A DNA stretch of 64,000 nt from Aliiroseovarius pelagivivens (GTDB taxonomy: Bacteria > Pseudomonadota > Alphaproteobacteria > Rhodobacterales > Rhodobacteraceae), in NCBI RefSeq assembly GCF_900302485.1, contig NZ_OMOI01000001.1, positions 682,001 through 746,000 on the forward strand. Direction: 5' to 3'. Position numbers and translations under genes: made by a program. Below the pieces are notes generated by a model that saw nothing but the letters and a program-made list of their open reading frames with translations, had not been told where the DNA came from and did not search any database. This document shows positions 46,039 through 64,000 of this stretch, in pieces (within the stretch, counting starts at the first letter, position 1; each line of letters opens with the position of its first letter).

Positions 46039-46856
46039 GGCAGTGTCAGAAGAACTTAGGTTGAAGCGGGCAGGGCGCTGACATAGCGTCCCGCCATGAC
46101 AAAACGCGACCCCTTCAAGTATTTCAAAACCAGCCCAGAGATCATCAAGTTGGCAGTGATGATGTATGTGCGGTTTCCACTGTCGCTTCGGAATGTTGAA
46201 GATCTTTTGCACGAACGCGGGATAGAAATCAGCCACGAAACCGTTCGATTTTGGTGGAACAGATTCGGCCCATTGTTTGCCGCTGAGATCCGGAGAAACA
46301 GGGTAAGTCGGCTGCGTTCATATTCAAACTGGCAGTGGCACCTGGACGAGGTCTTCGTGAAGATCAACGGGGAACGACATTACTTATGGCGAGCTGTGGA
46401 TCACGAAGGTGAAGTCTTGGAAAGCTATGTTACCAAACGTCGGAACAAGCGTGCTGCCCTTAAATTCTTGAAGAAAGCAATGAAGCGATACGGCCAACCC
46501 GAGCTTGTCGTCACAGACCGATTGAGGTCCTACGCGGCCGCGATGCGAGAAATCGGAAACGGGGACAAACAAGCTACCGGCCGTTACTTGAACAACCGGA
46601 TCGAGAATTCTCATCTTCCTTTCCGACGACGAGAACGAGCCATGTCCCGCTTCCGCCGAATGCGAAGTTTGCAGAAATTCGTTGCCGTCCACGCCTCAGT
46701 TTATAACCATTTCAACCAGGATCGTAGTCTTTCGAACAGAGATCAATTCAAGCTCAATCGCACCGCTGCTCTGACCGAGTGGCGCAGTCTCTGCGCGGCA
46801 TGAGGGACAGCTATGCTGGCCTAGTAGAGACTGGTTGGAATTTGTCTGACAGCACA
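46039..46856. mobile_element. IS6-family insertion sequence
   Basis: About 818 bp carrying one intact transposase. The ends are imperfect inverted repeats sharing TGTCAGA: 46044-46050 on the left and, as TCTGACA, 46845-46851 on the right, so exact borders are uncertain by a few bases. No 8-bp target duplication flanks it: ACACAAGA on the left versus ACACCAAG on the right, which are similar in places but not equal. It cuts the BCCT gene on the left and forms the last codons of the NTF2-like gene on the right, as expected if IS6-type recombination deleted DNA between two copies. Confidence 0.8.
46096..46803 (+). CDS. IS6-family transposase
   Basis: A 235-residue DDE transposase. The catalytic residues appear at Asp 84 (WHLDEVFVKI), Asp 141 (VVTDRLRSYA) and Glu 170 (NNRIENSHLPFRRRERAM). 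The N-terminal zinc/HTH part (KYFKTSPEIIKLAVMMYVRFPLSLRNVEDLLHERGIEIS) is typical of IS26/IS6. All residues needed for replicative cointegrate formation are present, so it is probably active. Confidence 0.95.
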   Translation: MTKRDPFKYFKTSPEIIKLAVMMYVRFPLSLRNVEDLLHERGIEISHETVRFWWNRFGPLFAAEIRRNRVSRLRSYSNWQWHLDEVFVKINGERHYLWRAVDHEGEVLESYVTKRRNKRAALKFLKKAMKRYGQPELVVTDRLRSYAAAMREIGNGDKQATGRYLNNRIENSHLPFRRRERAMSRFRRMRSLQKFVAVHASVYNHFNQDRSLSNRDQFKLNRTAALTEWRSLCAA

Positions 46857-47890
46857 CCAAGTACACCTGTTTCTCGTCCCGCAGAAATGCCGGTCGTCCG
46901 AGCCAAAACATCAATACCTTGCATGTTCCAGAAATGCAGAAGGTCGATGAAAATCCAGTTCTCGGTCAGTTTACTTCCGTCGCGCCGATAGATGTCGATC
47001 ACGCGCATATCGCCGGGCGTGTTGGTGGCAGGCATCCCCATAAATCCGCCCGAGGGTGTGAGCGTCAGGTTGGGCCAGCCAAAGAATCCGCCGAAGTGCC
47101 CCTCGGCAATGCGGCAAACATGACCATTAAAAGTGCGATCCGTTAGTCCTGCGCGGAATGGGCCAGAGTGCTGCTTTGCGTACCGCTCGATGGTATAACT
47201 CGCCCCGATCCCGGCGGGTCCCCACCAGACCATATCCTCGTTCCAACTGCGCCTAAGCTCGTCAACCAAAGGCTCTTCGGCGCCGCCACGCCACGTCTTG
47301 ATATCATTCACCATGTGGTCGATGGCAGCCAGCGTCTGGCGCCCTTCGTCGGGGTCCTGAGCGTCGAACATCAAACCCTCGTGTGTCATTGGTCCCGGTT
47401 GCACCAGATGGGCTGCGGTTTGTGGCGGAAAGGGCTGAAGGCCCGCCTGCATCATGAGATGAGGAATGTCGAAATACATCGCCGTCTCGGTGATCTTGTC
47501 TCCGTCGACCCGATGGAACTCGCAGTATCGTAGCATGGCGATTTTGCCCGTTGGGGGGATGCCCAGCCAGGGCTGATCAAACAGCCCCATCAGATGCCCC
47601 ATCGACACCACCCAAACGCCACCGTGATCCTCAATCGTATTCCGACCTGCCATGAACACATCCATGCGGCGTTGCATATGGGTAAGGGCCGTTCTGAGCG
47701 GGGTCCAGAACTGATCTGCCACCTCGCCTCTGTCGCGCAATTCGTGGAACGGATGAAAGCCACGCCACAGGTATTCTGACGAGATAAAACGGTCCTGCAC
47801 GGATATCAAATCATCAGATGAAGCGGCGTCAAGTTGGGTATAGTAGTCCCTAACCAATTGTTTAGCCGCCTGAAAATCGTTGTCTTTCAT
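46811..47890 (-). CDS. NTF2/SnoaL-like protein 1, tandem-domain, C-terminus rewritten by the IS
   Basis: A 359-residue protein made of two NTF2-fold repeats. Repeat 1 (about residues 1-165) ends with VSMGHLMGLFDQPWLGIPPTGKIAMLRYCEFHRVDGD and YFDIPHLMMQAG; repeat 2 (about 190-340) has MVWWGPAGIGASYTIERYAK and GSKLTENWIFIDLLHFW. It strongly resembles the proteins at 52538 and 56887. NTF2-fold members with such motifs act as cyclases, dehydratases, isomerases or hydrolases. Its last 14 or so residues (SDKFQPVSTRPA) come from the IS end, so the native tail is lost, but both folds look complete. It starts at 47890, divergent from the ABC operon, behind the LacI operators. Confidence 0.75.
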   Translation of the reverse strand: MKDNDFQAAKQLVRDYYTQLDAASSDDLISVQDRFISSEYLWRGFHPFHELRDRGEVADQFWTPLRTALTHMQRRMDVFMAGRNTIEDHGGVWVVSMGHLMGLFDQPWLGIPPTGKIAMLRYCEFHRVDGDKITETAMYFDIPHLMMQAGLQPFPPQTAAHLVQPGPMTHEGLMFDAQDPDEGRQTLAAIDHMVNDIKTWRGGAEEPLVDELRRSWNEDMVWWGPAGIGASYTIERYAKQHSGPFRAGLTDRTFNGHVCRIAEGHFGGFFGWPNLTLTPSGGFMGMPATNTPGDMRVIDIYRRDGSKLTENWIFIDLLHFWNMQGIDVLARTTGISAGRETGVLGVLSDKFQPVSTRPA

Positions 47891-47918
47891 TTTCAATTTT
47901 GCCTTGCTTGAGTCGCTT

Positions 47919-47988
47919 TTGCATACGTTTGCAAAAATACATTGCCAAGACGCCGCACCCGAGTCTAGCATATTGCAAACGTATGCAA
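47919..47988. promoter_or_regulatory. Two identical 16-bp LacI-type operators in opposite orientation
   Basis: TTGCATACGTTTGCAA at 47919-47934 and TTGCAAACGTATGCAA at 47973-47988 are exact reverse complements, with consensus TTGCAnACGTnTGCAA. Their centres are 54 bp apart (about five helical turns). They lie between the divergent NTF2 gene and the ABC ATPase gene, which fits looping or dual repression by the LacI protein encoded at 58691. Confidence 0.75.
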
Positions 47989-48012
47989 GCGATTCCACCC
48001 GGGGGAACATCC

Positions 48013-49062
48013 ATGGCCGAAATTCAATTGCGCAATCTGTCCAAGCGCTGGGGAGCCTTCGTCGGAGTCGACAATTTTGACCTGACAATTGCCGATAAGG
48101 AATTCTTGGTTCTGCTGGGTCCGTCGGGTTGCGGCAAAACCACGACCATGCGGATGATCGCCGGCCTTGAAGACGCCACCGAAGGCGACATTCTTGTCGA
48201 TGGCAAACGGGTGAATGACCTGGAACCCAAAGACCGCGACGTGGCGATGGTGTTCCAAAGCTATGCGCTTTACCCAAACATGAATGTCTACGACAACATC
48301 CGCTTTCCGTTGAAAGTCCGGGGCATTGATCCCAGTACCCATGACGAGAAAGTCCGACGCGCAAGCGCCATGGTGGAGTTGGATGAGTTCCTGCATCGCA
48401 AACCCGCCGAGCTGTCAGGTGGGCAGCGTCAGCGAGTGGCTTTGGCACGCGCGATTGTACGCGAACCGAATGTCTTCTTGATGGATGAACCTCTGTCAAA
48501 CCTTGATGCGAAACTGCGTGTCTCGACCCGTGCGCAGATCAAGAACCTGAGCCACGAACTGGCTGTGACCACGATCTATGTGACCCATGACCAAATCGAA
48601 GCGATGACATTGGCCGACCGCGTTGTCGTGATGAAACAAGGCGTGGTCCAACAGGTCGGCAGCCCGACCGATATTTATGACGCGCCCGCAAATGCCTTTG
48701 TCGCCAGCTTCATTGGTAGCCCGGCGATGAACCTTGTGGATGGCGAGCTGAAAGATGGCGTGTTTCGTGCAAAAAACACCGAAATTACTGGCCTAAGCGG
48801 CCCTGATGGAAAGGTCACGCTTGGGTTCCGAGCCGAAGACGCGAACGTTGTAGAAAGTGACGGCGAGATCAACGCCCCCATCTACACGATGGAGCTGTTG
48901 GGCGATGCAACAATGGTGTCCGTTCGCATCAGCGGCGCCTTGGTCAGTGTAAAGGCCGACAAGCTTTTCCGCGCCGAGATCGACGACGCCGTATCCATCC
49001 AAGTTCACAAAGATCACTGCCACTTGTTCGACGCCGAAACAGGTGAGCGTATCGGGGGCTAA
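48013..49062 (+). CDS. Sugar/polyol ABC transporter ATP-binding protein (MalK/UgpC type)
   Basis: A 349-residue ATPase of the CUT1 class. Walker A VLLGPSGCGKTTTMRM, Q-loop AMVFQSYALYPNMNVYDNI, signature LSGGQRQRVALARAIV, Walker B VFLMDEPLSNLDAKLR, and the switch His in TIYVTHDQ. A C-terminal OB/TOBE domain follows (from about 240: VTLGFRAEDANVV). The ATG at 48013 follows the LacI operators; the frame to 47899 overlaps them. GGGGGC / GCCCCC at 49053-49069 forms a hairpin over the stop codon. First gene of the transporter set. Confidence 0.92.
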   Translation: MAEIQLRNLSKRWGAFVGVDNFDLTIADKEFLVLLGPSGCGKTTTMRMIAGLEDATEGDILVDGKRVNDLEPKDRDVAMVFQSYALYPNMNVYDNIRFPLKVRGIDPSTHDEKVRRASAMVELDEFLHRKPAELSGGQRQRVALARAIVREPNVFLMDEPLSNLDAKLRVSTRAQIKNLSHELAVTTIYVTHDQIEAMTLADRVVVMKQGVVQQVGSPTDIYDAPANAFVASFIGSPAMNLVDGELKDGVFRAKNTEITGLSGPDGKVTLGFRAEDANVVESDGEINAPIYTMELLGDATMVSVRISGALVSVKADKLFRAEIDDAVSIQVHKDHCHLFDAETGERIGG

Positions 49063-49142: not shown

Positions 49143-50369
49143 ATGTTTCTGAAACACGCAGCACTGGCCAGTGGTTTGGCCTTGATGGCCGGCACAGCAT
49201 TGGCGGAATGTGAAATTCCCGGCAATGTCAGCATTGTTGGCAACGAATTCCCAGCCATTCATACCGTCGCCAAAGGCGCGGCTATGTGCACAGGTGGAGA
49301 GGTGAAAGCGAACCTCACAGCTGACCACCAGAAAATCAATGTCGCGGGTATGCAAGGCAATCCTGCGGAATACTCTACTGCCATCATCGCGAACTCGTCC
49401 GTGGTCGCCCTGATGAACGAAGATGTCATCCGGCCTCTGGACGATCTGGTCGCTGAATACGGTCAGGACATCCCCAAGAACCAGTTGATCACCATCGGTG
49501 GTAAGATCATGGCGGTGGCCTTTATGGCGAACGCCCAGACGCTGGCATATCGCAAGGATGTTCTTGAAGAGGTCGGTGTAGGCGTTCCAGCAACCTATGA
49601 AGACGTGCTGGCAGCCGCTGAGAAAATTCGTGCGGCAGGCATCAGTGAATACCCGGTCGGTGGCGCTTACAAGGCTGGCTGGAACCTCGCTGAAGAATTC
49701 GTGAATATGTATTCCGGATTTGGCGGTGAATTCTTCGTTCCCGGTTCGGCCGAAGTTGCGATCAACAACGAGCAAGGTGTCGCAGCACTTGAGATGATGA
49801 AGGCGCTGACCGCCTATATGAACCCCGATTTCCTGACCCATGATTCAAACGCTACTGGCGCTGAAATGGAAGCAGGCAACGTCATGCTGATGAATATGTG
49901 GGGCTCTCGCATGGGACCTCTGATGGATGACGAAGGCGCGGAAGAGCAGGTTTATTCCAACATCACCGTCGGACCCCCTCTGACAGTTGGAGGTGGAACA
50001 ACCCCGGCCTCGACACTGTGGTGGGATGGCTGGACCGTTGCCAAAAACATCTCGGACGAAGATGCGGTTGCGACATTCCTGGCGATGAAGCACGGCACTA
50101 GCCCAGCGATCCTGAACGACGAAACCATGGGTCAAGCCGTTTGGATTATCGATGGGTACAAACCGGCACCGGTGAATGATGGCGTCTTCGCAGCCATCGC
50201 TGCGGGGACCAAGTCGTACCCAATGCTGCCGTATGTAGGTCTGCTGCACACAGCAATTGGCGACAACCTGTCCGACTTCCTGTTGGGCAAAGAGAGTGCT
50301 GAACAAGCTTTGGCAGACTCTGAAGCCGCGTACACAGCTGCGGCGAAAGAAAAAGGGTTCCTTAAGTAA
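49143..50369 (+). CDS. ABC transporter substrate-binding protein
   Basis: A 408-residue periplasmic protein of the CUT1 solute-binding family 1. The signal peptide is MFLKHAALASGLALMAGTALA, with cleavage before ECEIP. The mature part has hinge motifs such as YGQDIPKNQL and YRKDVLEEVGVGVPATYEDVLAAAEKI and a middle Gly/Trp-rich strand (VGPPLTVGGG, LWWDGWTVAKN). GGGAGAGAG precedes the ATG. It defines what the importer takes up; family membership suggests a sugar, polyol or glycoside, not more. Confidence 0.92.
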   Translation: MFLKHAALASGLALMAGTALAECEIPGNVSIVGNEFPAIHTVAKGAAMCTGGEVKANLTADHQKINVAGMQGNPAEYSTAIIANSSVVALMNEDVIRPLDDLVAEYGQDIPKNQLITIGGKIMAVAFMANAQTLAYRKDVLEEVGVGVPATYEDVLAAAEKIRAAGISEYPVGGAYKAGWNLAEEFVNMYSGFGGEFFVPGSAEVAINNEQGVAALEMMKALTAYMNPDFLTHDSNATGAEMEAGNVMLMNMWGSRMGPLMDDEGAEEQVYSNITVGPPLTVGGGTTPASTLWWDGWTVAKNISDEDAVATFLAMKHGTSPAILNDETMGQAVWIIDGYKPAPVNDGVFAAIAAGTKSYPMLPYVGLLHTAIGDNLSDFLLGKESAEQALADSEAAYTAAAKEKGFLK

Positions 50370-50450: not shown

Positions 50451-51473
50451 ATGAAACATAAATCGTTCTTCTGGTTTGTTCTGCCGTCAGCCTTGGCGAT
50501 GATGCTGTTTATCTTTTTTCCAATCATCTCGGTGATCGTTCAGTCGGTTCACGTCGAGCATGAACAGGTCATCAAAGTCGTCGAATCCTGTGACCTTTTT
50601 GGGTGCAAAGAATCCACGACTGTTGATCAGGAAGCCACCGCTGCTTTGAAAGAAGCAAAGCCTTTGGGTCAATTCTCGGGTTTCAAAACTTATCTAGACC
50701 GAAATCATCTGGCAACGACCGAGGTTAGCTCGACCTGGAACAGAACCAACAGTTGGCGCGAATTCGGGTCGCAGATGCTGAACCTGCCGTTCTATAAGGC
50801 GATAGGTTTCACGCTCACCTTTACCTTTGTCGTAACGCCTTTGGTGATCATTCTCGGCTTTATCGTCGCCGTCGCCGTCAATGGTGCAGCCAAACGGTTG
50901 CGCGGTGTGCTGATCTTCTTCTCGCTTTTGCCAATGATGATCACACCTTTGGTCGGTGCGCTGATTTTGTTCTGGATGGTGGACGCGCGCGGGATCGTTG
51001 GCACCACTCTGCAATATCTGGCAGGGGATCCAAGTTTGTCCGTCAAGGCATCGACGCCGATGATGTGGATCATGCTGATGGTCTATGGCGTGTGGCACGC
51101 TGTGCCCTTTGCCTTCATCGTCTATTACGCGGGTCTGCAATCTGTAAATCAGGACACACTAGAAGCCGCTCGGGTAGACGGGGCCAACCGGTGGCTACAG
51201 ATCCGCCATGTGATCATCCCACATCTTCTGCCCCTCACAACCTTCATCGCGCTGATGCAGCTGATGGACAATTTCAGAGTGTTTGAGCCGATCGTCAGTT
51301 TTGCCGCCAGCGCGCATGCGACGTCGCTTAGCTGGGCGATCTACAACGACCTTGGTGGGGAAACCCGACAGCTTTCGTCTGCGGCTGCGACCTCGGTTCT
51401 GACAATTCTTGGTGTGGCCATTCTGTTGTCACCAGTCCTCGTGCGCACATGGCGCGAATTCGATCGGAAGTAG
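50451..51473 (+). CDS. ABC transporter permease with an enlarged periplasmic loop
   Basis: A 340-residue CUT1 permease (MalF-like role). TM1 lies at about residues 6-26 (FFWFVLPSALAMMLFIFFPI), and is followed by an unusually long loop of about 70 residues with Cys-Asp-Leu-Phe-Gly-Cys, which could form a disulfide. The core helices and EAA loop (EAARVDGANRWLQIRHVIIP) come next. The ATG at 50451 has GGGGGC upstream; the frame to 50373 is in the intergenic gap. Partner of the 51481 permease. Confidence 0.9.
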   Translation: MKHKSFFWFVLPSALAMMLFIFFPIISVIVQSVHVEHEQVIKVVESCDLFGCKESTTVDQEATAALKEAKPLGQFSGFKTYLDRNHLATTEVSSTWNRTNSWREFGSQMLNLPFYKAIGFTLTFTFVVTPLVIILGFIVAVAVNGAAKRLRGVLIFFSLLPMMITPLVGALILFWMVDARGIVGTTLQYLAGDPSLSVKASTPMMWIMLMVYGVWHAVPFAFIVYYAGLQSVNQDTLEAARVDGANRWLQIRHVIIPHLLPLTTFIALMQLMDNFRVFEPIVSFAASAHATSLSWAIYNDLGGETRQLSSAAATSVLTILGVAILLSPVLVRTWREFDRK

Positions 51474-51480
51474 GTGAAAT

Positions 51481-52362
51481 ATGTCTAGCAAATTAAAACG
51501 CCAGCCCCCCGCCGTTACGTTGATGGTCGTTGCCGTTCTGGCGATCTGGATGATCTTAGCAGCCTTTCCGTTCCTTTGGACGCTATGGGGGTCTTTCAAG
51601 GTCGAGGGTGACTTCTTTTCCAAAGCCGATTGGTCTAACGCCATCAAGGGCACGCTAACGCAGGTCGAAACCGGAGGCCGGTTTACTGGCGACGGATATG
51701 AAGGGGCATGGGTTCAGGAAGAGTTCTGGCGCGCTGCACTGAATTCAGTGATCGTCTGCATTTTTGTGGTTTCGATTTCCCTGACGCTTGGCACACTTGG
51801 CGGATATGCCCTGGCCCGTTCAACCTATCGCTATGCATTCTGGTTCCTGCTTGCCGCCCTGATCTTTCGCGCGATGCCACCAATCACGCTGGTGTCGGGT
51901 TATCTGCCGGTATTTTTCCAGTGGAACCTTTGGGGGCACACCGCGACGACCATCGTCGTTTTGGTAGCGATCAATCAGCCCTTCACGCTTTGGATGCTGC
52001 ATTCGTTCTTCAAGAACATTCCGGCCGAGCTTGACGAAAGCGCGATGGTCGATGGATGCACCCGCTTTCAGGCCTTCCGCAACGTGATCATCCCGGTGAT
52101 GTGGCCAGGTGTGATCACCACGGGCCTCTTTTCGTTTTTGCTGGCCTACAACGACTTTGCAGTTACGACGATGCTGCTGTCGAAAGAAAACCAAACCATG
52201 ATCCCTAAGATCAACAGCTTCCTTGGCACGACACAGACCAAGGGCAACGTGATGTTTGCGGTGTCGGCTGTTGTCTCGGTGACAGCGCCGTTGTTCGTCA
52301 TGGTTCTGTTCTTCCAACGTCAGATCGTTGGTGGTCTGACCGCCGGCGCGGTTAAAGGGTGA
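51481..52362 (+). CDS. ABC transporter permease
   Basis: A 293-residue second permease (MalG-like role) with six membrane segments and the EAA-loop ELDESAMVDGCTRFQAFRNVIIPVMWPG. A periplasmic insertion between TM1 and TM2 contains DFFSKADWSNAIKGTLTQVET and GGRFTGDGYEGAW, somewhat longer than usual. It starts seven bases after the first permease. The 175 bp downstream contain G+C-rich inverted repeats and lead to the first downstream NTF2 gene. Confidence 0.92.
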   Translation: MSSKLKRQPPAVTLMVVAVLAIWMILAAFPFLWTLWGSFKVEGDFFSKADWSNAIKGTLTQVETGGRFTGDGYEGAWVQEEFWRAALNSVIVCIFVVSISLTLGTLGGYALARSTYRYAFWFLLAALIFRAMPPITLVSGYLPVFFQWNLWGHTATTIVVLVAINQPFTLWMLHSFFKNIPAELDESAMVDGCTRFQAFRNVIIPVMWPGVITTGLFSFLLAYNDFAVTTMLLSKENQTMIPKINSFLGTTQTKGNVMFAVSAVVSVTAPLFVMVLFFQRQIVGGLTAGAVKG

Positions 52363-52537: not shown

Positions 52538-53524
52538 ATGAGCTACCCCGACCGAACCCCTTACCTTGAATACGCTGCCGTGCAACGCCACCCCGGCGAC
52601 TTCACCCCGACAATCGAGCGTTTCTTTTCTTCCACGGCCCAAATCAACGTGGTGCACCCGTTCAACGAAACCGGCAACGGCAGCGGCTATCATGATGCGG
52701 TGATTGCACCGCTTCAGGCAGCCTTTACCGGACTGTATCGCCGCGACGATATCGTTATGGCAGGACAGTTTGAAAATGGCGACTGGATCACCGCCACCGG
52801 GTATTACTGCGGCTGTTTTGCCAATGACTGGATCGGTATTCGTGCCACAGGACGGTTGGCCTATCTGCGATACGGCGAGTTTCACCGGATGGAGAATGGT
52901 GCAGCAGTGGAAAGCTACATCTTTCTGGACCTCCCGGAATTGATGATCGCATCGGGTCAATGGCCCATCGCAACCGGCCCGGGCGACAAACGTGGGTATA
53001 CCGGTCTGATCCAAGGACCGGCCACACAAGATGGTGTCATGACCGCGCTGCAGGATCCGGCAGAGAGTGCGAAAAGCTACCAGATCACCTCGGACATGTT
53101 GCTTAAGCTGGCGACCAAAGACGAAGCCTGGCGACCTTATTGGCACGAGAACATGATGTGGTATGGCCCCGGCGCATTCGGGTCATTCATTGGCATCGAT
53201 GATTTCGCCTCTTTTCAGGTGCCTTTTGAAAGCCAGTTCGACGAATGGTCGGGTGGGTCGAAGAACAATGGTATGACCCGCCACTTCACCCGCATGGGTG
53301 AAGGCAACTACTCCTGCTCGGGGGGGTGGCCGTCGCTGACTGGCGTCAATGTCAAATCATTCCTTGAACAGGACCCGACCGGCGAGCGTGTCTTCATGCG
53401 TGTCTGCGACTGGTGGCGTCGCGAAGGCGATCTGCTGGTGGAAAACTGGGTCTTTGTAGATGTTCCTCACGTGCTCAAGCAGCTCGGTTTTGATCTGTTT
53501 GCTGACTTGGAGAACGCGGGATGA
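52538..53524 (+). CDS. NTF2/SnoaL-like protein 2, tandem-domain
   Basis: A 328-residue two-repeat NTF2-fold protein. Repeat 1: VVHPFNETGNGSGYHDAVIAPLQAAF, TGYYCGCFANDWIGIRATGRLAYLRYGEFHRME and FLDLPELMIASGQWP. Repeat 2: MMWYGPGAFGSFIGIDDFASF and LLVENWVFVDVPHVLKQLG. It is a paralogue of the proteins at 46811 and 56887. Substrate and reaction unknown. Overlaps the GMC oxidoreductase as ATGA, implying coupled expression and possibly successive steps. Confidence 0.75.
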   Translation: MSYPDRTPYLEYAAVQRHPGDFTPTIERFFSSTAQINVVHPFNETGNGSGYHDAVIAPLQAAFTGLYRRDDIVMAGQFENGDWITATGYYCGCFANDWIGIRATGRLAYLRYGEFHRMENGAAVESYIFLDLPELMIASGQWPIATGPGDKRGYTGLIQGPATQDGVMTALQDPAESAKSYQITSDMLLKLATKDEAWRPYWHENMMWYGPGAFGSFIGIDDFASFQVPFESQFDEWSGGSKNNGMTRHFTRMGEGNYSCSGGWPSLTGVNVKSFLEQDPTGERVFMRVCDWWRREGDLLVENWVFVDVPHVLKQLGFDLFADLENAG

Positions 53525-55562: not shown

Positions 55563-55576
55563 ACGAGGAAAAAGCA

Positions 55577-56887
55577 ATGACAATAGAATACCTCAAACGT
55601 GGCAAACCCGAAGCAGATCGCGCCGAGGATGATGCGAAAACCGCCGCCGTTGTGGCCGCGACGTTGAAGGACATCGAAACCCGTGGAGACACCGCCGTAC
55701 GCGAGTTGGCCAACAAGTTCGACGGGTATGATCGCGACAGCTATCGCCTGACCCAAGACGAGATCGACATCCTGATCGCCAAGGTCAGCCCCCGCGACCT
55801 TGAAGACATCAAGTTTGCACAGGCGCAGGTGGTTAACTTCGCCCAAGCCCAACGCGACAGCATGTTGGATATCGAGGTTGAGACCATGCCCGGCGTCATT
55901 CTGGGCCACAAAAACATCCCCGTGCAATCTGTCGGCTGCTACGTACCCGGCGGCAAGTTCCCAATGGTCGCCTCGGCCCATATGTCGGTCGCCACCGCCA
56001 AGGTGGCGGGCGTCCCGCGAATTATCGCCTGCACGCCACCTTTCAACGGTGAACCCAACCCAGCCGTGATTGCTGCGATGCATCTGGGCGGCGCACATGA
56101 GATTTACGTTTTGGGCGGCATTCAAGCCGTGGGCGCGATGGCCCTTGGCACTGAAAGCATCGACCCAGTTCACCTGCTGGTCGGACCCGGCAATGCCTTT
56201 GTGGCTGAAGCCAAGCGGCAGCTATTCGGTCGCGTCGGGATTGACCTGTTCGCAGGTCCAACCGAGACCATGGTGATCGCAGACGAGACCGTCGATGCCG
56301 AGATGTGCGCGACCGACCTGTTGGGCCAAGCCGAACACGGCTACAACTCCCCCGCGGTTTTGGTGACAAACTCACGCAAATTGGCCGAAGGTACGCTGAG
56401 CGAAATCGATCGCATCCTAAAAATTCTGCCCACCGCAGGCACGGCTGGCGTCAGCTGGCAAGACTACGGCGAGGTCATCCTGTGTGACACCTATGACGAG
56501 ATGCTTGAGGTCGCTGACGACATTGCGTCCGAGCATGTTCAAGTGATGACCGACCGGGACGATTGGTTCCTTGAAAGCATGACTTGCTATGGCGCTCTGT
56601 TCCTTGGGCCACGCACCAATGTCTCGAACGGGGACAAGGTGATCGGCACAAACCACACGTTGCCCACCAAAAAGGCAGGGCGCTACACCGGCGGACTTTG
56701 GGTTGGCAAGTATTTGAAAACGCACAGCTATCAAAAAATCACGACAGATGAGGCTGCCGCCAAGATTGGCGCATACGGTTCGCGTCTATGCCTACTGGAA
56801 GGGTTCGTGGGTCACGCCGAGCAATGCAACCTGCGTGTACGTCGTTACGGCGGACAAAACGTACCTTACGGTGAGGCCGCCGAGTAA
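55577..56887 (+). CDS. Histidinol dehydrogenase-family alcohol dehydrogenase (HpsN-like)
   Basis: A 436-residue Zn- and NAD-dependent enzyme of the HisD superfamily, which oxidises an alcohol to an acid in two steps. Motifs: [78 protein letters not shown] (metal His) and [12 protein letters not shown] [18 protein letters not shown]. From memory it is close to sulfopropanediol dehydrogenase HpsN and not to biosynthetic HisD; no other histidine genes are near. It probably oxidises a pathway intermediate. SD: GAGGAAAAAGCA before ATG. Confidence 0.88.
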
Positions 56888-57933
56888 TGAGCTTGCCCGC
56901 GCACCTCAAATCCCTGATCGCGCCCCTACGCGCAGCAATGGCGGAGTTCTCCGAGGTTGGGGTGCGCGCGGCGTTGAATAGTGTTCTGGCCGACGATGCA
57001 ACGGTGCGGCTCTCGCATCCCTTGGGCGAGATGTCCGGCGCAGAGTTTTACGACCGCGCCTATGCACCGCTGCTTGAGGCGATGCCAGACCTCGAGCGAC
57101 GCGACCTGATCGTCGTTGCCGGGAATGATGGGGATGGTGGCGGCTGGGTCGGCTGTATGGGGCACTATATGGGCACATTCGCAGCTCCGTTTCTCGATAT
57201 CCCGCCAACTGGTCACCTGGCACATATGCGGTATCATGAGTTTTACCGCATCGAAGGGGATCGCGTCGTCGAGATGCAGGCAATCTGGGACTTGCCGGAG
57301 CTGATGATGCAAGCCGGGGCTTGGCCGATGGTGCCAAGCCTAGGGCGCGAGTTTTGTGTGCCAGCGCCGATGACGCAAGATGGACTGTCAGAGCACGACC
57401 CCAATGTCAGTCAGGCGAGTCATGATCTGGTGATCGACATGCTAACCCACCTGTCGCGCCATCCGTCTGAAGGCGGGCCAGAGATTATGCAGGCGGAGCG
57501 CTTCTGGCATCCACGCATGAACTGGTACGGTCCTGCGGGCATCGGCACCGCGCGTGGCATTGCAGGCTTTCGCAACTGGCACCAGATCCCGTTTTTGAAA
57601 GCACTACCTGATCGCAAGGGTGGCACGACCGGCACCCTGAATTCGCACTTCTTTGCCGATGGAAATTTCGTCGCCGTGACCGGCTGGCCCAACATGCAAA
57701 TGTCTGTGACCGGAGACGGTTGGCTGGGCATCGCACCTGCGGACCAGAAGATCACAATGAAAAGCCTCGACTTCTGGCGCGTCGAAGGGGACCGCATCCG
57801 TGAAAACTGGGTTCTGGTCGATCTGCTGGACGTCTATGCCCAGCTGGGCGTAGATGTGTTTGCCCGACTGCGAGAGTTCAACAAAGCACGCGTTCCGGGC
57901 CGTATTCCATTCCCGATAGGAGCCGCCAGATGA
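56887..57933 (+). CDS. NTF2/SnoaL-like protein 4, tandem-domain
   Basis: A 348-residue two-repeat NTF2 protein. Repeat 1: GCMGHYMGTFAAPFLDIPPTGHLAHMRYHEFYRIEGDRVVEMQAIWDLPELMMQAG; repeat 2: RMNWYGPAGIGTARGIAGFRNWHQIPF and WLGIAPADQKITMKSLDFWRVEGDRIRENWVLVDLLDVYAQLG. It matches proteins 1 and 2 in the same positions (GH-Y/L-MG...IPPTG, WYGPAG). Its ATG overlaps the preceding TAA by one base and its stop overlaps the SDR. Confidence 0.78.
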   Translation: MSLPAHLKSLIAPLRAAMAEFSEVGVRAALNSVLADDATVRLSHPLGEMSGAEFYDRAYAPLLEAMPDLERRDLIVVAGNDGDGGGWVGCMGHYMGTFAAPFLDIPPTGHLAHMRYHEFYRIEGDRVVEMQAIWDLPELMMQAGAWPMVPSLGREFCVPAPMTQDGLSEHDPNVSQASHDLVIDMLTHLSRHPSEGGPEIMQAERFWHPRMNWYGPAGIGTARGIAGFRNWHQIPFLKALPDRKGGTTGTLNSHFFADGNFVAVTGWPNMQMSVTGDGWLGIAPADQKITMKSLDFWRVEGDRIRENWVLVDLLDVYAQLGVDVFARLREFNKARVPGRIPFPIGAAR

Positions 57934-58694
57934 CCCTGCCTAAGACCCCATCCTTCCGCCTTGATGGCAAACGCGCGCTGGTGGCTGGTGCCAGTTCTGG
58001 CATCGGTCTGGCCTGTGCCACAGCTTTGGGCGAGGCTGGGGCCGAGGTCACTTTGGCCGCACGCCGGGCCGATGTACTGGCCGGTTTGGTCGATGAAATG
58101 AAGGCAGCAGGAATGACGGCACGCGCGCTCCCTCTGGACGTTGCCGATGTGGCGGGCACGCGGGAAGCGATCGCCGACAATGGCCCGTTTGATATCCTCG
58201 TGAACTCTGCGGGACTAGCGCGCCACAGCCCGGCCAGTGAAACGACCGCGGACGATTTCGACGCGGTTTCGAACCTCAACATCAAAGGTGCATATTTTCT
58301 GACGCAGGCTGTCGCCAAAGGGCTTCTGGCCGCGGGCAAGCCCGGCAGCCTTATCAACATATCTTCGCAGATGGCCCATGTCGGCGGGCTTGATCGCGCG
58401 GTTTATTGCGCCACCAAACATGCTGTTGAGGGGTTCACGAAATCCATGGCAATCGAGTGGGGAAAGGCGGGCATTCGCGTCAACACGATCTGCCCCACCT
58501 TTATCCTGACGGACCTGACCCGCTCGACATTCGAACAGCCCGACAAACGCGCGTGGATCGAAGACAAGATCAAGCTGGGCCGTGTGGGCGAGGTCGAGGA
58601 CATCATGGGGGCCGTGGCCTATCTGGCCTCGGACGCATCGTCTTTGGTGACAGGTACGGCGTTGATGATTGATGGCGGGTGGACAGCAGAATGA
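57930..58694 (+). CDS. Short-chain dehydrogenase/reductase
   Basis: A 254-residue classical SDR. Cofactor loop ALVAGASSGIGLACA near residue 20, NAG-type NSAGLA near 95, catalytic Tyr 159 and Lys 163 (YCATK), with a Ser in NISSQMAH upstream, and PTFILTDLT after. The Arg-rich turn RRADVL after the second strand suggests NADP(H) preference. It acts on a carbonyl or alcohol of the pathway. Overlaps both neighbours. Confidence 0.9.
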   Translation: MTLPKTPSFRLDGKRALVAGASSGIGLACATALGEAGAEVTLAARRADVLAGLVDEMKAAGMTARALPLDVADVAGTREAIADNGPFDILVNSAGLARHSPASETTADDFDAVSNLNIKGAYFLTQAVAKGLLAAGKPGSLINISSQMAHVGGLDRAVYCATKHAVEGFTKSMAIEWGKAGIRVNTICPTFILTDLTRSTFEQPDKRAWIEDKIKLGRVGEVEDIMGAVAYLASDASSLVTGTALMIDGGWTAE

Positions 58695-59710
58695 GCACAG
58701 CCAAAGTCACATCCCAACAAGTTGCCGAGCGTGCTGGCGTCAGCCAATCCGCTGTCAGCCGGGTGTTCACTCCGGGCGCGTCGGCCTCGAAGAAGACGGT
58801 CGAGAAGGTTCGAAAAGCGGCAGCCGAACTGGGCTACCGCCCCAACGTTCTGGCGCGCGCAATGGTGTCTGGCAAAAGCCGGATCATCGGTTTGGTCGTC
58901 GCCTATCTTGAGAACCAATTCTATCCCGAAGCGCTGGAAAAACTGTCGAACGAGCTTCAGCAGCGCGGCTATCACGTGCTGATCTTTTTGGCTGAGCAAA
59001 CCGCTGGGAATATTGACGATGTCGTCGAGGAAATCCTTGATTATCAAGTGGATGGAATCATTGCGGCTTCGGTCGCTATGTCCTCGGATCTATCCGATCG
59101 GTGCCGGGCGGCAGGCGTACCGATGGTGCTATTCAATCGTAGCCAAGATGACCCAAATATGTCCGCTGTGACCTCGGACAATTATGCAGGTGGGCGTAAA
59201 ATCGCAGAATTTCTGCTGGCCGCCGGTCATCGTAAAATCGGGCATATCGCCGGGTGGGAAGGCGCCTCGACCCAGCGTGATCGCGAGGCTGGGTTTATCT
59301 CGGCATTAGCCGAAGCGGGTGTCGCCTTACACTCGCGCGCTCAGGGTGATTTCACTATGGAGAAGGCCGCAGAGGCCACCCGCAAAATGTTCACATCTGA
59401 CCCGCCCGAAGCCGTCTTTGTCGCCAACGATCATATGGCCGTGGCTGTCATGGACACGTTGCGATTTGAATTGGGGTTCAAGGTGCCCGAAGACGTATCG
59501 GTTGTGGGTTTTGATGATGTGCCAGCCGCCGGATGGCCCGCCTATAATCTGACCACTGTCCGCCAGCCGGCCAACCGAATGGTGGCCGACACGGTCGAAA
59601 TCCTGCTCGACCAGATTGAAAACAAAAGCGACGAACCGCGCCGCATCGCCATTGACGGGCCGCTGATCCTGCGCGGATCGGCCCGCATTCCAGAAGGATG
59701 GACCGCATGA
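58691..59710 (+). CDS. LacI-family transcriptional regulator
   Basis: A 339-residue repressor. HTH at residues 5-30 (VTSQQVAERAGVSQSAVSRVF), hinge NVLARAMVSGKSRIIGLVV, then a periplasmic-binding-like effector domain (VVGFDDVPAAGWPAYNLTTVRQP). It is embedded in the operon, overlapping genes on both sides as ATGA. Best candidate to bind the two TTGCAnACGTnTGCAA sites at 47919-47988; the inducer is probably the substrate or an intermediate (inference). Confidence 0.9.
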   Translation: MSTAKVTSQQVAERAGVSQSAVSRVFTPGASASKKTVEKVRKAAAELGYRPNVLARAMVSGKSRIIGLVVAYLENQFYPEALEKLSNELQQRGYHVLIFLAEQTAGNIDDVVEEILDYQVDGIIAASVAMSSDLSDRCRAAGVPMVLFNRSQDDPNMSAVTSDNYAGGRKIAEFLLAAGHRKIGHIAGWEGASTQRDREAGFISALAEAGVALHSRAQGDFTMEKAAEATRKMFTSDPPEAVFVANDHMAVAVMDTLRFELGFKVPEDVSVVGFDDVPAAGWPAYNLTTVRQPANRMVADTVEILLDQIENKSDEPRRIAIDGPLILRGSARIPEGWTA

Positions 59711-60681
59711 AGGGTTTTGCCCCGAAATTCACCGATTTCCCAGATTACATCCTGAAGATCACCCGCGAGATCTGGGAGGATCGCGGTATCGCCACGCTCA
59801 ACCACTACTACACCGAAGACATTCCGATGCGCTTTCCCGAGGGCGTCTCGATGGGCAATCAGAAGACCATGAACGGCACGCTGGCCACGTTGGCGGAGTT
59901 CCCGGATCGCGAGCTGACCGGTGAAGACGTGATCTGGTCTGGTAACGAGGAAGATGGGTTCCTGTCCTCGCACCGTCTGCTGACTATGGGCACACACACT
60001 GGCGGTGGCTTTTTCGGCCCAGCCACTGGCAAGCGGTTTGTGATCCGCGCCATTGCCGATTGCGCCGCGATCAATGATCAGATCAACGATGAATGGCTGA
60101 TCCGCGACACGGCAGGTATCGTTCTGCAACTTGGAATGAAGCCGAAGAAATTCGCGCGTAATCTGATTGCGCGAGAAGGCGGGCCAGCGCATTGCGTCAA
60201 GCCATTCTGCCCCGCTGTCGATGTCGAAGGCCCCTACAAAGGGCGGGGCAATGACAATGAATGGGGCGCTCGGATGTCAGACATTCTGACCCGGATGATG
60301 AACAAAGACTTCGCGGTGATCCGCGCGGAATATGACCGGGCGGTTCAGACCGAGCATCCAGCCTCGACCACCGTGCATTCTTGGGCAGATACTGAAAAGT
60401 TGTGGATGGGTCTGCGCGCATCGTTTCCGAACGCCGAGTTCAAGATTGAGCACCAGATCGGGCGAGAAGACCCGATGTTATCGCCCCGTGCCGCCGTTCG
60501 ATGGAGCCTACACGGCAAGCATGACGGCTGGGGCATGTTTGGCCAACCGACCGGCGCTGATGTCTATGTGATGGGCTTCACCCATGCTGAGTTTGGCCCC
60601 TATGGGTTGCGCCGCGAATGGACGCTGTTTGACCACGTTTCGATCTGGAAGCAGATCCTGATGCAGACGGGTGCGTGCTAA
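59707..60681 (+). CDS. NTF2/SnoaL-like protein 5, tandem-domain, divergent
   Basis: A 324-residue protein with two NTF2-like halves that are more distant from proteins 1, 2 and 4. N-terminal half: YYTEDIPMRFPEGVSMGNQKTMNGTLATLAEFPDREL, HTGGGFFGPATGKRFVIRAIADCAAINDQINDEWLIRDTAGIVLQLG, which resembles ester cyclases. C-terminal half: FPNAEFKIEHQIGREDPMLSPRAAVRWSLHGKHDGWGMFGQPTGADVYVMGFTHAEFG. Starts in ATGA with LacI. Fifth such protein in the cluster. Confidence 0.75.
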   Translation: MKGFAPKFTDFPDYILKITREIWEDRGIATLNHYYTEDIPMRFPEGVSMGNQKTMNGTLATLAEFPDRELTGEDVIWSGNEEDGFLSSHRLLTMGTHTGGGFFGPATGKRFVIRAIADCAAINDQINDEWLIRDTAGIVLQLGMKPKKFARNLIAREGGPAHCVKPFCPAVDVEGPYKGRGNDNEWGARMSDILTRMMNKDFAVIRAEYDRAVQTEHPASTTVHSWADTEKLWMGLRASFPNAEFKIEHQIGREDPMLSPRAAVRWSLHGKHDGWGMFGQPTGADVYVMGFTHAEFGPYGLRREWTLFDHVSIWKQILMQTGAC

Positions 60682-60811: not shown

Positions 60812-60831
60812 AAACCAAAGGAGACATGAAA

Positions 60832-61791
60832 ATGAACAACATTGAAAACCGCATCGTTCGCTACGGCGACCTGAAACCCTGCAAAACTGCGTTTATCGAC
60901 GCGCACACGCCGGGGTCGGATCAGAAAGAAAACTTCACCATCATCGGTGGTGGCGTGTCTGAAAGCCCCGACCAGCATGTGCACATCGCCGACCAAATCG
61001 GGTTCAACATTGGGGCTGCTGGGCAACCTCCGCGCTGCCGTAACTCGCTGCACGACCACAACACAGCCGAGGTGTTCTTTGTCCTCAAAGGCAAGTGGCG
61101 GTTCTTCTGGGGCCGTTGGGGTGATGCAGGTGAGGTGACGCTGGAGGAAGGCGACATTTTCAACATCCCCACCGGCATCTTCCGTGGCTTTGAAAACATC
61201 GGCACTGACTATGGAATGATCATGGCCGTTCTTGGCGGCAATGATGCTGGCGGCGGCGTGCATTGGGCTCCTCAGGTGATCGAGGATGCTGCAGACCATG
61301 GCCTTGTGCTGGGTGAAAACGGCGTTCTTTATGACAGCAAGAAGGGCGATAAGTTGCCTCACAACGTCAACCCGATGCCCCTGATGTCAGAAGAAGAACT
61401 GGCCAAGCGCGCAGAGCCGACCACAGCGGACGTCCTGCCAAATCACGTTGCCCGCTATTGGGACCTGATGGCACTGTCGGACAACCAATCTGCCAAGGTG
61501 ATCGGGGCCGATGCAATTCTGCGCGACCGCCCCGGTTTCGAGGTCGATTTTCTGTCACGCAATTCCATCTCGGCCGATGTGCATACTCACGATCAGAATA
61601 CAGTTCTGATGCCTGTGCGCGGACATTGGAAGGTCAGCTTAGAAGGCGCGGAGACTGCGTTGAATCCGGGTGACACATGTCTGATCAAAGCGGGCGAGGC
61701 GCATTCCATCACGCCGTCCATGACGGGCGAGGCAAGCCTTTACCGTATCCGCGCCACCGACGATCCTGCTGGCCTGACCGGCGCAGTTTAA
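60832..61791 (+). CDS. Bicupin protein (gentisate dioxygenase-like fold)
   Basis: A 319-residue protein with two cupin domains. Cupin 1: LHDHNTAEVFFVLKGKWRFFWG, then EEGDIFNIPTGIFRGFENIG. Cupin 2: HTHDQNTVLMPVRGHWKVSL and NPGDTCLIKAGEAHSI. Metal His residues are present in both, so a mononuclear metal dioxygenase or isomerase is possible. AAGGAG lies 8 bases before the ATG at 60832 but only 2 before the ATG at 60826, so I choose the second. It starts the second half of the operon. Confidence 0.82.
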   Translation: MNNIENRIVRYGDLKPCKTAFIDAHTPGSDQKENFTIIGGGVSESPDQHVHIADQIGFNIGAAGQPPRCRNSLHDHNTAEVFFVLKGKWRFFWGRWGDAGEVTLEEGDIFNIPTGIFRGFENIGTDYGMIMAVLGGNDAGGGVHWAPQVIEDAADHGLVLGENGVLYDSKKGDKLPHNVNPMPLMSEEELAKRAEPTTADVLPNHVARYWDLMALSDNQSAKVIGADAILRDRPGFEVDFLSRNSISADVHTHDQNTVLMPVRGHWKVSLEGAETALNPGDTCLIKAGEAHSITPSMTGEASLYRIRATDDPAGLTGAV

Positions 61792-61811
61792 CACAAGGGA
61801 AAGGGCCCATT

Positions 61812-62936
61812 ATGACCAAGGTAAAAACAACTCATGTGGGCTCTTTGCCACGCACGCAGGATGTGGTGGATTTCATTTTTGCCCGTGAGAATGAGAAACC
61901 ATTTGATCAAGCCGAATTCGACACCTGTATGACGTCAGCGGTGTTAGAAACCGTGCGCAAGCAGGTCGAGGCAGGCATCGACATTGTGTCAGATGGTGAG
62001 ACCTCCAAGATTTCTTACGCCACCTACGTGAAAGACCGCTACACCGGATTTGGTGGAGACAGTCCGCGCAACGCGCCAGCGGATCTGAAGATGTTCCCGG
62101 GATTTCTTGAGCGTTTGGCCGATGATGGCGGCACTCCTAAATATGCGCGCCCAATGTGCGTGGGTGAGGTGCGGTCCAAGGGTCAGGGCGAGCTAGAGAA
62201 GGACATCGCGAACCTCAAGGCGGCGATGGCTGACCATGGCGCAGAACGAGGTTTTATGAACGCGGCCAGCCCCGGTGTGATCTCGCTGTTCCTGCAAAAT
62301 GATTACTACAAATCGCGCGAGGCCTATTTGGCCGCTTTGGCTGATGCAATGAAGGCGGAATACGAAACTATCGTGGCCGCAGGATTGGACCTCCAGCTGG
62401 ATTGCCCGGATCTGGCCCTGTCACGCCACATGCTCTTCACCGACTTGTCTGATGACGAGTTCATCAAGGTCGCAAATATGCATGTGGAGGCTCTGAACCA
62501 CGCTTTATCAGACGTGCCCGCCGATAAGGTCCGGGTGCACATCTGTTGGGGTAATTACGAAGGGCCGCATTGCTGTGACATCCCCATGTCGAAGATGTTC
62601 GATACGTTGATGGCCACGAAATCGCGCTATGTTCTGTTCGAAACCTCAAACCCACGCCACGGGCATGAATGGTCCACCTTCCGTGATCGCAAAGCTGACA
62701 TCCCGGACGACAAGGTGCTGGTGCCCGGTGTCGTCGACACCACCACCAATTTCGTTGAACACCCTGAACTGGTCGCCCAGCGGATCGAACGTTTTGTGGA
62801 TATCGTCGGCGCGGATCGCGTGATCGCCGGGTCCGATTGCGGCTTTGGTACCTTTGCGGGCTTCGGCGCGGTCGACCCTGACATTGCTTACGCCAAACTG
62901 TCAGCCCTGTCTGAAGGGGCGGCGCTGGTCAAATGA
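61812..62936 (+). CDS. MetE C-terminal-domain-like zinc enzyme
   Basis: A 374-residue barrel protein of the cobalamin-independent methionine synthase/UROD-like family, lacking MetE's N-terminal half. Zinc ligands seem conserved: His 243-x-Cys 245 (VHICWGNYEG), a Glu in LFETSNPRHGHEW, and Cys 343 (GSDCGFGTF). Family members transfer methyl or alkyl groups to or from thiols (methionine synthase, coenzyme M transferases). Here it lies between a bicupin and a hydrolase, so a demethylation or thiol-linked step is plausible but unproven. The frame from 61677 overlaps the cupin gene and is rejected. Confidence 0.85.
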   Translation: MTKVKTTHVGSLPRTQDVVDFIFARENEKPFDQAEFDTCMTSAVLETVRKQVEAGIDIVSDGETSKISYATYVKDRYTGFGGDSPRNAPADLKMFPGFLERLADDGGTPKYARPMCVGEVRSKGQGELEKDIANLKAAMADHGAERGFMNAASPGVISLFLQNDYYKSREAYLAALADAMKAEYETIVAAGLDLQLDCPDLALSRHMLFTDLSDDEFIKVANMHVEALNHALSDVPADKVRVHICWGNYEGPHCCDIPMSKMFDTLMATKSRYVLFETSNPRHGHEWSTFRDRKADIPDDKVLVPGVVDTTTNFVEHPELVAQRIERFVDIVGADRVIAGSDCGFGTFAGFGAVDPDIAYAKLSALSEGAALVK

Positions 62937-63625
62937 CACCACTGGTCCTGCTTCCTGGAATGATGTGCGACGCGCGGTTGTTCGCACCGCAAGTCGCTGC
63001 GTTATCTGGGTGCAGGACAGTGATTTGTGCTTCTTTGGCGGAACGCTCCAGCGTCGAGGAACTAGCTTTGGACATTCTTGCCGATGCGCCCCAGTGTTTC
63101 GCTTTGGCGGGCCTGTCAATGGGCGGGATCGTCGCGATGGAAATCCTGCGTCAAGCTCCTGAGCGGGTAGAACGGATTGCGCTTCTCGACACCAACCCAT
63201 TGGCAGAAACTGACGAGGTCAAAGCCCGCCGAATTCCCCAGATGATGGCCGTGAAAGTGGGGAAGCTCTCGGTGATCATGCGTGATGAAATGAAGCCGAA
63301 TTACCTAAGCGAGGGGCCACGGCGTGGCGAAGTGCTTGATCTGTGTATGGACATGGCACTTGATCTCGGCCCGCACGTGTTTTTGAACCAATCCCGTGCC
63401 TTGATGGATCGGTCTGACCAGACCGAAACCTTGCGCAATGCTACCGTTCCAGCGCTTATCCTGTGCGGGCGGGAAGACACGTTATGCCCGGTCGCTCGCC
63501 ACGAAATGATGGCCGGTCTGATCCCAGGCGCACGGCTGGAGATCATCGATGGTGCGGGACATTTGCCGACTTTGGAACAACCCGAAAAAACCAATGCAGC
63601 GCTTGCCCGCTGGCTGGAGGAATAA
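62933..63625 (+). CDS. Alpha/beta hydrolase
   Basis: A 230-residue hydrolase: LVLLPGMMCDARLFAPQV (oxyanion strand), nucleophile Ser 62 in AGLSMGGIVAME, acid in CGREDTLCPV, His in GAGHLPTLEQP. Complete triad. It resembles the ring-product/lactone hydrolases of aromatic and terpene catabolism. Couples to the MetE-like gene (ATGA) and to the next gene (TAATG). Confidence 0.87.
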   Translation: MTPLVLLPGMMCDARLFAPQVAALSGCRTVICASLAERSSVEELALDILADAPQCFALAGLSMGGIVAMEILRQAPERVERIALLDTNPLAETDEVKARRIPQMMAVKVGKLSVIMRDEMKPNYLSEGPRRGEVLDLCMDMALDLGPHVFLNQSRALMDRSDQTETLRNATVPALILCGREDTLCPVARHEMMAGLIPGARLEIIDGAGHLPTLEQPEKTNAALARWLEE

Positions 63626-64000
63626 TGGACGACACACTCCTAAACCTGCTCAAGCAGGTCGACACGCCGACAGTTTGCAACGCCATCGAAGTCGCGCAAG
63701 GAAAACGCGGTTTCAACGCTTTCACGCGTGGCACCATGTTGGCCTCGCATCCCGAAGCGTCCGCGATGGTCGGATACGCCCGTACCGCGAAGATTGCGGC
63801 TGTTATGCCACCAGATGAACCGCCCGAAATCATCAAGGCCCGCCGCATGGACTATTACCGCCACATGGCTGAAGGACCACGCCCCGCCATCACTGTGGTG
63901 GAAGATACCGATTTCCCACATTGCATCGGGGCCTACTGGGGCGAAATCAACACGACTGTTCACAAAGGCTTTGGCGTATCGGGGGCTCTGACAAACGGAG
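63625..64000 (+). CDS. RraA/HMG-aldolase-like protein, N-terminal part (runs off window)
   Basis: 125 residues visible, starting MDDTLLNLLKQVDTPTVCNAIEVAQG, continuing MVGYARTAKIA and ending in GAYWGEINTTVHKGFGVSGALTNG. This is the RraA/4-hydroxy-4-methyl-2-oxoglutarate aldolase/dimethylmenaquinone methyltransferase-like fold. The Gly-rich GxxWGE and GVSGALTNG segments match the active-site region of metal-dependent aldolases. It starts in TAATG overlap with the hydrolase. A final C-C cleavage or decarboxylation is the likely role. Confidence 0.85.
   Translation, partial: MDDTLLNLLKQVDTPTVCNAIEVAQGKRGFNAFTRGTMLASHPEASAMVGYARTAKIAAVMPPDEPPEIIKARRMDYYRHMAEGPRPAITVVEDTDFPHCIGAYWGEINTTVHKGFGVSGALTNG

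Follow-up and report, generated by a model that had tools for sequence, protein, structure and literature searches.

A conserved and apparently undescribed gene cluster of catabolic type in marine Rhodobacterales, with a retained set of NTF2-fold proteins, a HisD-family dehydrogenase of unusual motif and a widely shared promoter palindrome

A 64,000-nucleotide stretch of the genome of Aliiroseovarius pelagivivens (assembly GCF_900302485.1, contig NZ_OMOI01000001.1, positions 682,001 to 746,000 of the forward strand), hereafter the window, carries in its last 17 kb a cluster encoding an ATP-binding cassette (ABC) importer, several oxidoreductases and five SnoaL/NTF2 proteins, which we designate A to E. 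An initial annotation, made from the letters alone, had read this region as an unrecognized catabolic operon, and its inventory holds: a CUT1-type importer and HisD-like, SDR, GMC, cupin, MetE-like, hydrolase and RraA-like enzymes are all present, and Pfam confirms the five NTF2 proteins, four with two domains and one with a single domain. The features are as follows, with occurrence given, where stated, among the 61 relatives' loci defined below.

46811..47890, minus strand: NTF2 protein A, two SnoaL domains (Pfam; methionine start read), divergent from the importer genes
47919..47934, no strand: operator-like palindrome, copy 1, TTGCATACGTTTGCAA (palindrome searches of window and genome)
47973..47988, no strand: operator-like palindrome, copy 2, TTGCAAACGTATGCAA, 54 bp from copy 1
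48013..49062, plus strand: ABC importer ATPase (59/61 loci; annotated in relatives as UgpC or ABC ATP-binding)
49143..50369, plus strand: extracellular solute-binding protein (Pfam SBP_bac_1)
50451..51473, plus strand: ABC permease A (60/61 loci)
51481..52362, plus strand: ABC permease B (60/61 loci)
52538..53524, plus strand: NTF2 protein B, two domains, optional (Pfam; 12/61 loci)
53521..55038, plus strand: GMC oxidoreductase, optional (Pfam; 6/61 loci)
55035..55562, plus strand: NTF2 protein C, single SnoaL domain (Pfam; match to SnoaL 1sjw, E 1.6e-10; methionine start read)
55577..56887, plus strand: HisD-family dehydrogenase, motif GKFPM (Pfam, PDB match, motif and residue alignments)
56887..57933, plus strand: NTF2 protein D, two domains (Pfam; structure model; fold match)
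57930..58694, plus strand: SDR dehydrogenase (Pfam)
58691..59710, plus strand: LacI-family repressor (60/61 loci; annotated in relatives as LacI)
59698..60681, plus strand: NTF2 protein E, two domains, separate deep clade (Pfam; tree)
60826..61791, plus strand: bicupin, HxHxxxE in domain 1 (Pfam; residue conservation)
61812..62936, plus strand: short MetE-like protein (Pfam; H244, C246 and C344 in 70/70)
62933..63625, plus strand: alpha/beta hydrolase (Pfam)
63625..64000, plus strand: RraA-like aldolase-family protein (Pfam; residues), running past the window end (L002:625-1320)

The portions analyzed were 46811-47869 for A, whose final ~15 codons lie within insertion sequence (IS)-related sequence (the IS match stops at 46856), 55062-55562 for C, where 55062 is an internal codon and 55035 the true start, and 61809-62936 for the MetE-like protein.

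A search of species genomes with NTF2 D gave 232 relatives, of which the best 80 were kept as loci; gene-content counts refer to 61 relatives' loci of at least 20.9 kb, in which D is present by selection. Among those best 80 the gene order is nearly constant, beginning with A (minus strand), the ATPase, the binding protein, the two permeases and, where present, B and GMC, and continuing with C, HisD, D, SDR, LacI, E, cupin, MetE, hydrolase and RraA. The conserved synteny that the initial annotation had proposed to look for in roseobacters is found there, and beyond them as well, with core genes in 58-61 of the 61 loci. A occurs in 58, C in 59, E in 60 and D, by selection, in all 61, with HisD in 59, SDR in 57, LacI in 60 and cupin in 59, followed downstream by MetE in 53, the hydrolase in 54 and RraA in 51. 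The proposed set of five NTF2 proteins is therefore to be amended, in that A, C, D and E are the core types and B (12 loci) is optional, as is GMC (6 loci). When 83 loci were checked for further genes, an Amidohydro_2-type gene adjoined A (once, the ATPase gene) in 38, its product in Ruegeria conchae resembling PDB 4dlf, and a methyltransferase-like gene of the S-adenosylmethionine type stood ahead of MetE in 18.

Matches at E 1e-60 or better to a profile built from A, B and D proteins occur in 131 of 292 sampled genomes of the order and 53 of 112 genera, making the cluster a common trait of marine Rhodobacterales for which we found no assigned function. Searches of one open-access library turned up no description of the operon, in keeping with the earlier statement that no described pathway has this gene set. 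The cluster is thus real, conserved and, to judge by those searches, apparently undescribed. Its protein families are ordinary; what is unusual is that the NTF2 proteins are kept together, that the HisD motif falls outside two published classes, and that a palindrome marks related clusters elsewhere.

All seven PF07366 matches found in the genome lie inside the cluster, and these matches, together with a structure model and fold match for D only, agree with the NTF2 fold proposed for the five proteins. A quick tree, built from 87 two-domain proteins, gives E and B each as a single group with full support and A as one group with a support of only 4; D needs two changes. Because A, B, D and E fall in separate tree groups and each is mostly single-copy per locus, the tree argues for different roles for the four. 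Several NTF2 proteins together are a recurring feature of a conserved operon of catabolic type, and the archaeon Halobellus and Deinococcus also hold several. Since the four Halobellus proteins make up their own supported group and those of Deinococcus expand on the E side, such multiplicity seems to have evolved on more than one occasion, with the placement of some long branches unsure.

The pattern R-x2-D/E-x16-D, on which A, B, C and D could be placed but E not, is present in 77/77 C proteins. Among 92 D proteins its three positions in the first domain are R in 91, E in 90 and D in 92, and in the second domain R in 76 or K in 9, D in 92 and D in 92; Ala replaces the first-domain Glu in 22 of 76 A proteins, and Gly the last first-domain Asp in 10 of 17 B proteins. 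Asp121 of SnoaL, which we take to be the catalytic residue, aligns (with 1sjw) to V131 of C, a valine in 77/77. The same position is mainly non-acidic in A (commonest residues Met/Ile), B (Val/Cys) and D (Ala/Val), these three being placed by the shared motif rather than by alignment to SnoaL, and E not being placed. C scores 43.7 against a cut-off of 200 in the curated model NF033407, and a search with that model at E 0.01 gave no match from A, B, D or E. The non-Asp residue at the Asp121 position, the missed cut-off and the genomic context together disfavor an identity as polyketide cyclases.

The HisD-family protein exceeds the cut-off of the curated histidinol dehydrogenase model TIGR00069 (420.7 bits vs 243.8), and its best PDB match is HpsN (E 7e-117). 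In published work, HisD is distinguished by the motif G-S-A-P-L and HpsN by G-R-Y-A/S-H, and enzymes of this type are described as oxidizing a CH2OH group that adjoins OH or NH2 (PMC11382572). The cluster protein carries neither the histidinol dehydrogenase motif nor that of HpsN with its His126, and so by motif falls in neither published class: among 84 cluster HisD proteins the motif is GKFPM in 80, GKYPM in 1, GRYPL in 2 and unread in 1. Alignment to HpsN shows the zinc ligands Gln248, His251, His411 and Asp352, along with Glu318 and His319, kept in 81/81, and at the His126 position Met in 79/81 and Leu in 2/81. Two further paralogs in the genome do carry the HpsN-type His (GRYRH and GRYSH; L117 and L118), and another HisD homolog lies at C1:2074421 (37%). 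In related clusters outside the main type, some HisD copies read GKYPL, GRFPL or GRYPL. Because HisD genes of the cluster's clade occur in other settings too (Rhizobium pRL8, Shinella), HisD alone does not define the pathway.

The divergent promoter between A and the ABC genes holds the 16-bp element TTGCATACGTTTGCAA and its reverse complement, 54 bp apart. The genome has no exact match to TTGCAWACGTWTGCAA besides these two copies, the chance expectation in the window being 0.05 matches; a search for perfect 6+6 palindromes in the window's own intergenic stretches gave none, and the imperfect one was noticed by reading. At up to two mismatches the genome has six sites, vs three for a reversed control pattern. 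A testable divergent promoter is available in 54 of the 80 loci, and it contains the exact core GCAWACGTWTGC in 31, a core with at most one mismatch in 49, and two or more such sites in 28, the remaining 1.09 Mb of those loci holding 10. Leaving aside the genome's own copies, two exact cores stand 54 bp apart in 17 loci and 55 bp apart in two. Over all sequence compared, with loci partly overlapping, three control palindromes gave 7, 1 and 0 matches vs 126 for the palindrome.

Sites also precede operons in Sinorhizobium, Martelella, Roseibium, Paracoccus, Ensifer and both Deinococcus loci, the genes behind them in Sinorhizobium, Martelella, Roseibium and Deinococcus being ABC, cupin, ester-cyclase or hydrolase genes; Phaeobacter (L097) has the core only. 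That similar sites precede the Sinorhizobium, Martelella, Roseibium and Deinococcus versions suggests one dedicated LacI regulon across these clusters, in which the cluster LacI protein would bind the palindrome; since the palindrome is common to them, a common inducer is likewise suggested. The perfect form TTGCATACGTATGCAA, of which the window's own genome has no exact copy, occurs once each in 2/149 genomes of the family and 2/299 of the phylum. One of these four sites lies beside an A gene and one beside a cluster-type HisD gene. The other two have no query-gene match within 2-3 kb around, and the palindrome was accordingly rejected as an exclusive marker of the cluster.

The remaining enzymes offer further clues. 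Cobalamin-independent methionine synthase binds zinc through His, Cys and Cys, and the MetE-like protein keeps H244, C246 and C344 in 70/70, with a best curated methionine synthase score of 96.6 bits vs a cut-off of 406. In Croceicoccus (L100) a homolog 52% identical lies inside folate and aromatic-catabolism genes, its neighbors being aminomethyltransferase, methylene-tetrahydrofolate reductase, purU, folD, 4-oxalomesaconate tautomerase, ligK and pobA; these zinc-type residues and neighbors tie the MetE-like protein to methyl groups. The same Croceicoccus stretch (L100:1708-11924) also holds dihydroneopterin aldolase and a small NTF2 gene, and the group is perhaps an undescribed part of O-demethylation. 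Cupin metal ligands comprise HxHxxxE plus a third His; the bicupin keeps H76, H78 and E82 in 79/79, with Arg (R120) at the third-His place in 79/79. A candidate 3-His metal site in its second domain was dropped, its residues not being conserved. The RraA-like protein matches PF03737 (55.7 bits vs a cut-off of 24.5) and keeps E107, R128 and D129 in 67/67. Its R128-D129 may be equated, by motif alone and without alignment to that enzyme, with Arg-123 and the metal ligand Asp-124 reported in a paper on a class II aldolase for 4-hydroxy-4-methyl-2-oxoglutarate and 4-carboxy-4-hydroxy-2-oxoadipate (HMG/CHA) (PMC5065237). An "aldolase/citrate lyase" gene occupies the expected RraA place in Klebsiella, Novosphingobium and Deinococcus, which points to pyruvate release from a 4-hydroxy-2-oxo acid.

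Other versions of the cluster, described for the stretches fetched, vary in what they retain. Paracoccus and Ruegeria plasmids carry the gene set, that of Paracoccus without MetE, and in Ensifer, which also has no MetE, the proteins C, E and a D-like one are accompanied by HisD, cupin and RraA. Vibrio pelagius has no HisD; its importer stands with A, an A-like protein, D and E, and sarcosine oxidase and purU genes lie alongside. Halobellus limi has the importer, four D-like proteins, one short protein and a MetE-like protein, with GcvT- and VOC-family genes further off. NTF2 and ABC genes stand without HisD in Vibrio, Phaeobacter and Halobellus. Two Deinococcus plasmids combine an importer with ester cyclases, of which QL22 has four, including a short one, and D. 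taeanensis three; alongside these are two HisD genes and genes for LacI, SDR, cupin, hydrolase, C-N hydrolase and aldolase/citrate lyase. In Roseibium, Martelella, Sinorhizobium and Novosphingobium the HisD/cupin core is joined by an amidase and by an ester cyclase of E-like type, and Klebsiella has that core without either. An amidase or C-N hydrolase gene is found in six of the seven bacterial loci with E-like proteins outside the main E group (L006, L097, L103, L104, L106, L114 and L115), L097 (Phaeobacter) having none in 23 kb. Sulfitobacter and Antarctobacter have LacI, TAXI-TRAP, HisD, SDR and aldolase genes and no NTF2 genes. Sarcosine oxidase genes lie near NTF2 or importer genes in Vibrio pelagius (L096:14818-20984) and, near D, in a Rhodobacteraceae metagenome-assembled genome (L047:534-5188), and are explained by none of the substrates considered here.

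The cluster is flanked by mobile sequence. Transposase-bearing sequences at window 46025-46856 and L002:7219-8049 share 90.6% identity across 832 bp, are oriented alike and enclose ~25 kb, comprising the whole cluster and LysR, TAXI-TRAP and sulfatase genes; the cluster could have been mobilized in one piece. The additional genes, which follow RraA at L002:1597-7156, encode a LysR-like regulator, a TAXI-type binding protein, a fused TRAP permease (Pfam DctM) and a sulfatase assigned by Pfam, and could serve a related anionic or sulfated substrate. Beside the first transposase, an open frame at window 45339-46034 resembles by eye the C-terminal end of a BCCT-type transporter that the insertion has disrupted, and past the second, L002:8093-11551 shows by eye frames for malonyl-CoA synthetase, malonyl-CoA decarboxylase and a GntR-type regulator.

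How might these proteins work together? We give about even chances to a dedicated, LacI-controlled catabolic regulon: the NTF2 set would come in early, a methyl group would be dealt with by the MetE-like protein, and the cupin, HisD and an aldolase would complete the route. The importer would take the compound up, and the NTF2 proteins would then act on it as a set by hydrolysis or isomerization, an early step being most likely because they stay with the importer where no HisD core is seen. The MetE-like protein would remove the methyl group or pass it on, and the cupin might open or rearrange a ring. The HisD-type enzyme, by its family chemistry, would convert a CH2OH beside OH to the carboxylate, and the RraA-like protein, to judge from its family, its residues and the apparent swap with another aldolase family, would split a 4-hydroxy-2-oxo acid into pyruvate and a second product. 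The substrate would be one class of small hydroxylated compound, probably bearing an O-methyl group as well as a bond of C-N or ester-like type.

Several observations weigh against this scheme. MetE was not found in 8/61 loci or in the fetched stretches of Paracoccus, Ensifer, Sinorhizobium and Deinococcus, so a demethylation step is not common to all versions. Ring cleavage by the cupin is uncertain because its third metal His is an Arg and the second-domain His residues vary among relatives, and its best PDB match reaches only E 0.028. For the RraA-like protein the sole PDB match is a weak one to an uncharacterized protein, and SDR and GMC have no firm place. The distant relatives of the binding protein are mostly sugar-binding, which a plain carbohydrate would fit equally, and a filtered palindrome search found none in the Vibrio, Halobellus, Klebsiella, Novosphingobium, Sulfitobacter and Antarctobacter loci.

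Mycosporine-like amino acids, sunscreens made by algae and corals, combine on one ring a C-N substituent, an O-methyl group and C(OH)(CH2OH), and because such a ring would give most of the enzymes a role, a mycosporine-like amino acid or gadusol is a tentative candidate substrate, on chemical fit only. On this reading the NTF2 set would strip the ring's amino-acid substituents by vinylogous amide or imine hydrolysis, different paralogs serving different substituents or steps, and the MetE-like enzyme would take off the C2 O-methyl. The cupin would cut the resulting reductone between C1 and C2 to give 4-hydroxy-4-(hydroxymethyl)-2-oxoadipate, HisD would turn its CH2OH to COOH, and the RraA-like aldolase would split the 4-carboxy-4-hydroxy-2-oxoadipate so formed into pyruvate and oxaloacetate, which on paper accounts for every ring carbon. 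Bacteria are reported, in a review, to convert shinorine and porphyra-334 to mycosporine-glycine and 4-deoxygadusol (PMC3083659), a conversion to which the cluster would then give genes. That the cluster supplies the missing genes by which bacteria consume mycosporine-like amino acids and gadusols is possible, if doubtful. Searches of one open-access library aimed at mycosporines turned up no paper on breakdown genes, and neither mycosporine nor gadusol appears in the main text of a Ruegeria pomeroyi transporter paper (PMC10130141).

It is conceivable, although we hold it unlikely, that a plain sugar, sugar acid or (methylated) cyclitol is degraded with no ring-cleaving oxygenation, the dehydrogenases oxidizing alcohols, the NTF2 proteins and cupin dehydrating or isomerizing, and the aldolase ending the route. 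The LacI and CUT1-type families, the sugar-type binding-protein matches and the Amidohydro_2 genes beside A, including the 4dlf-like one, fit this, as do the curated models nearest the SDR, which are sugar-acid dehydrogenases scored below their cut-offs; yet the core has no kinase or known sugar dehydratase, and the MetE-like protein and the amidase or C-N hydrolase genes of other versions are left unexplained. Less likely still, the NTF2 proteins might be no enzymes but a hetero-oligomeric binding or carrier assembly passing the compound to the dehydrogenases. Several two-domain proteins with a single-domain one do recur in Rhodobacterales, Halobellus and Deinococcus QL22, and the SnoaL catalytic position is not mainly Asp in A-D; D. 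taeanensis, however, departs from that pattern with three long ones annotated, and the conserved Arg and acidic residues of A, C and D could be an active site.

We think it quite improbable that a methoxylated aromatic is O-demethylated and its ring then opened, with a CHA-type aldolase closing the route, as might be read from the pobA, 4-oxalomesaconate tautomerase and ligK genes around the Croceicoccus MetE homolog and from genes of VOC extradiol-like and GcvT-family type near the Halobellus set; common methoxy-aromatics lack the CH2OH beside OH or NH2 that HisD chemistry requires, LacI/CUT1 import is unusual for aromatics, and the core has no mono-oxygenase. A dihydroxypropanesulfonate (DHPS) pathway can be all but dismissed, since, for all that HpsN is the nearest PDB structure and a Lys that also contacts sulfonate is kept in 81/81 HisD proteins, the HpsN motif gives way to G-K-F-P-M in 80/84 with Met or Leu at the His126 position, the genome's two other paralogs carry the His, and Cupriavidus HpsN is just 47.5% identical, vs homologs of at least 60% in 124 of 381 plasmid records.

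Returning to the catabolic scheme preferred here, its proteins can be set beside four known systems. With the SnoaL/AknH/IdmH polyketide ester cyclases and the SnoaL2/AclR hydroxylases the cluster has the NTF2 fold and family in common, but four of its five NTF2 proteins have two domains and no polyketide synthase is present among the genes scanned by Pfam. The RraA-like protein shares PF03737 with HMG/CHA aldolases of the LigK/ProA type and has an invariant Arg-Asp pair that may correspond to theirs; the x20-R-D motif of those aldolases has Asp at what is presumably the place of its Glu. The Croceicoccus cluster (15 kb) likewise has a MetE-like protein, a small NTF2 protein, an amidohydrolase and ligK, but is without an annotated CUT1 importer, HisD, LacI or long NTF2 gene. 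Finally, the cluster HisD protein is ~47% identical to HpsN, the DHPS 3-dehydrogenase described in PMC11382572, and has the same zinc and catalytic residues, but the sulfonate-recognizing His126 of that enzyme is replaced.

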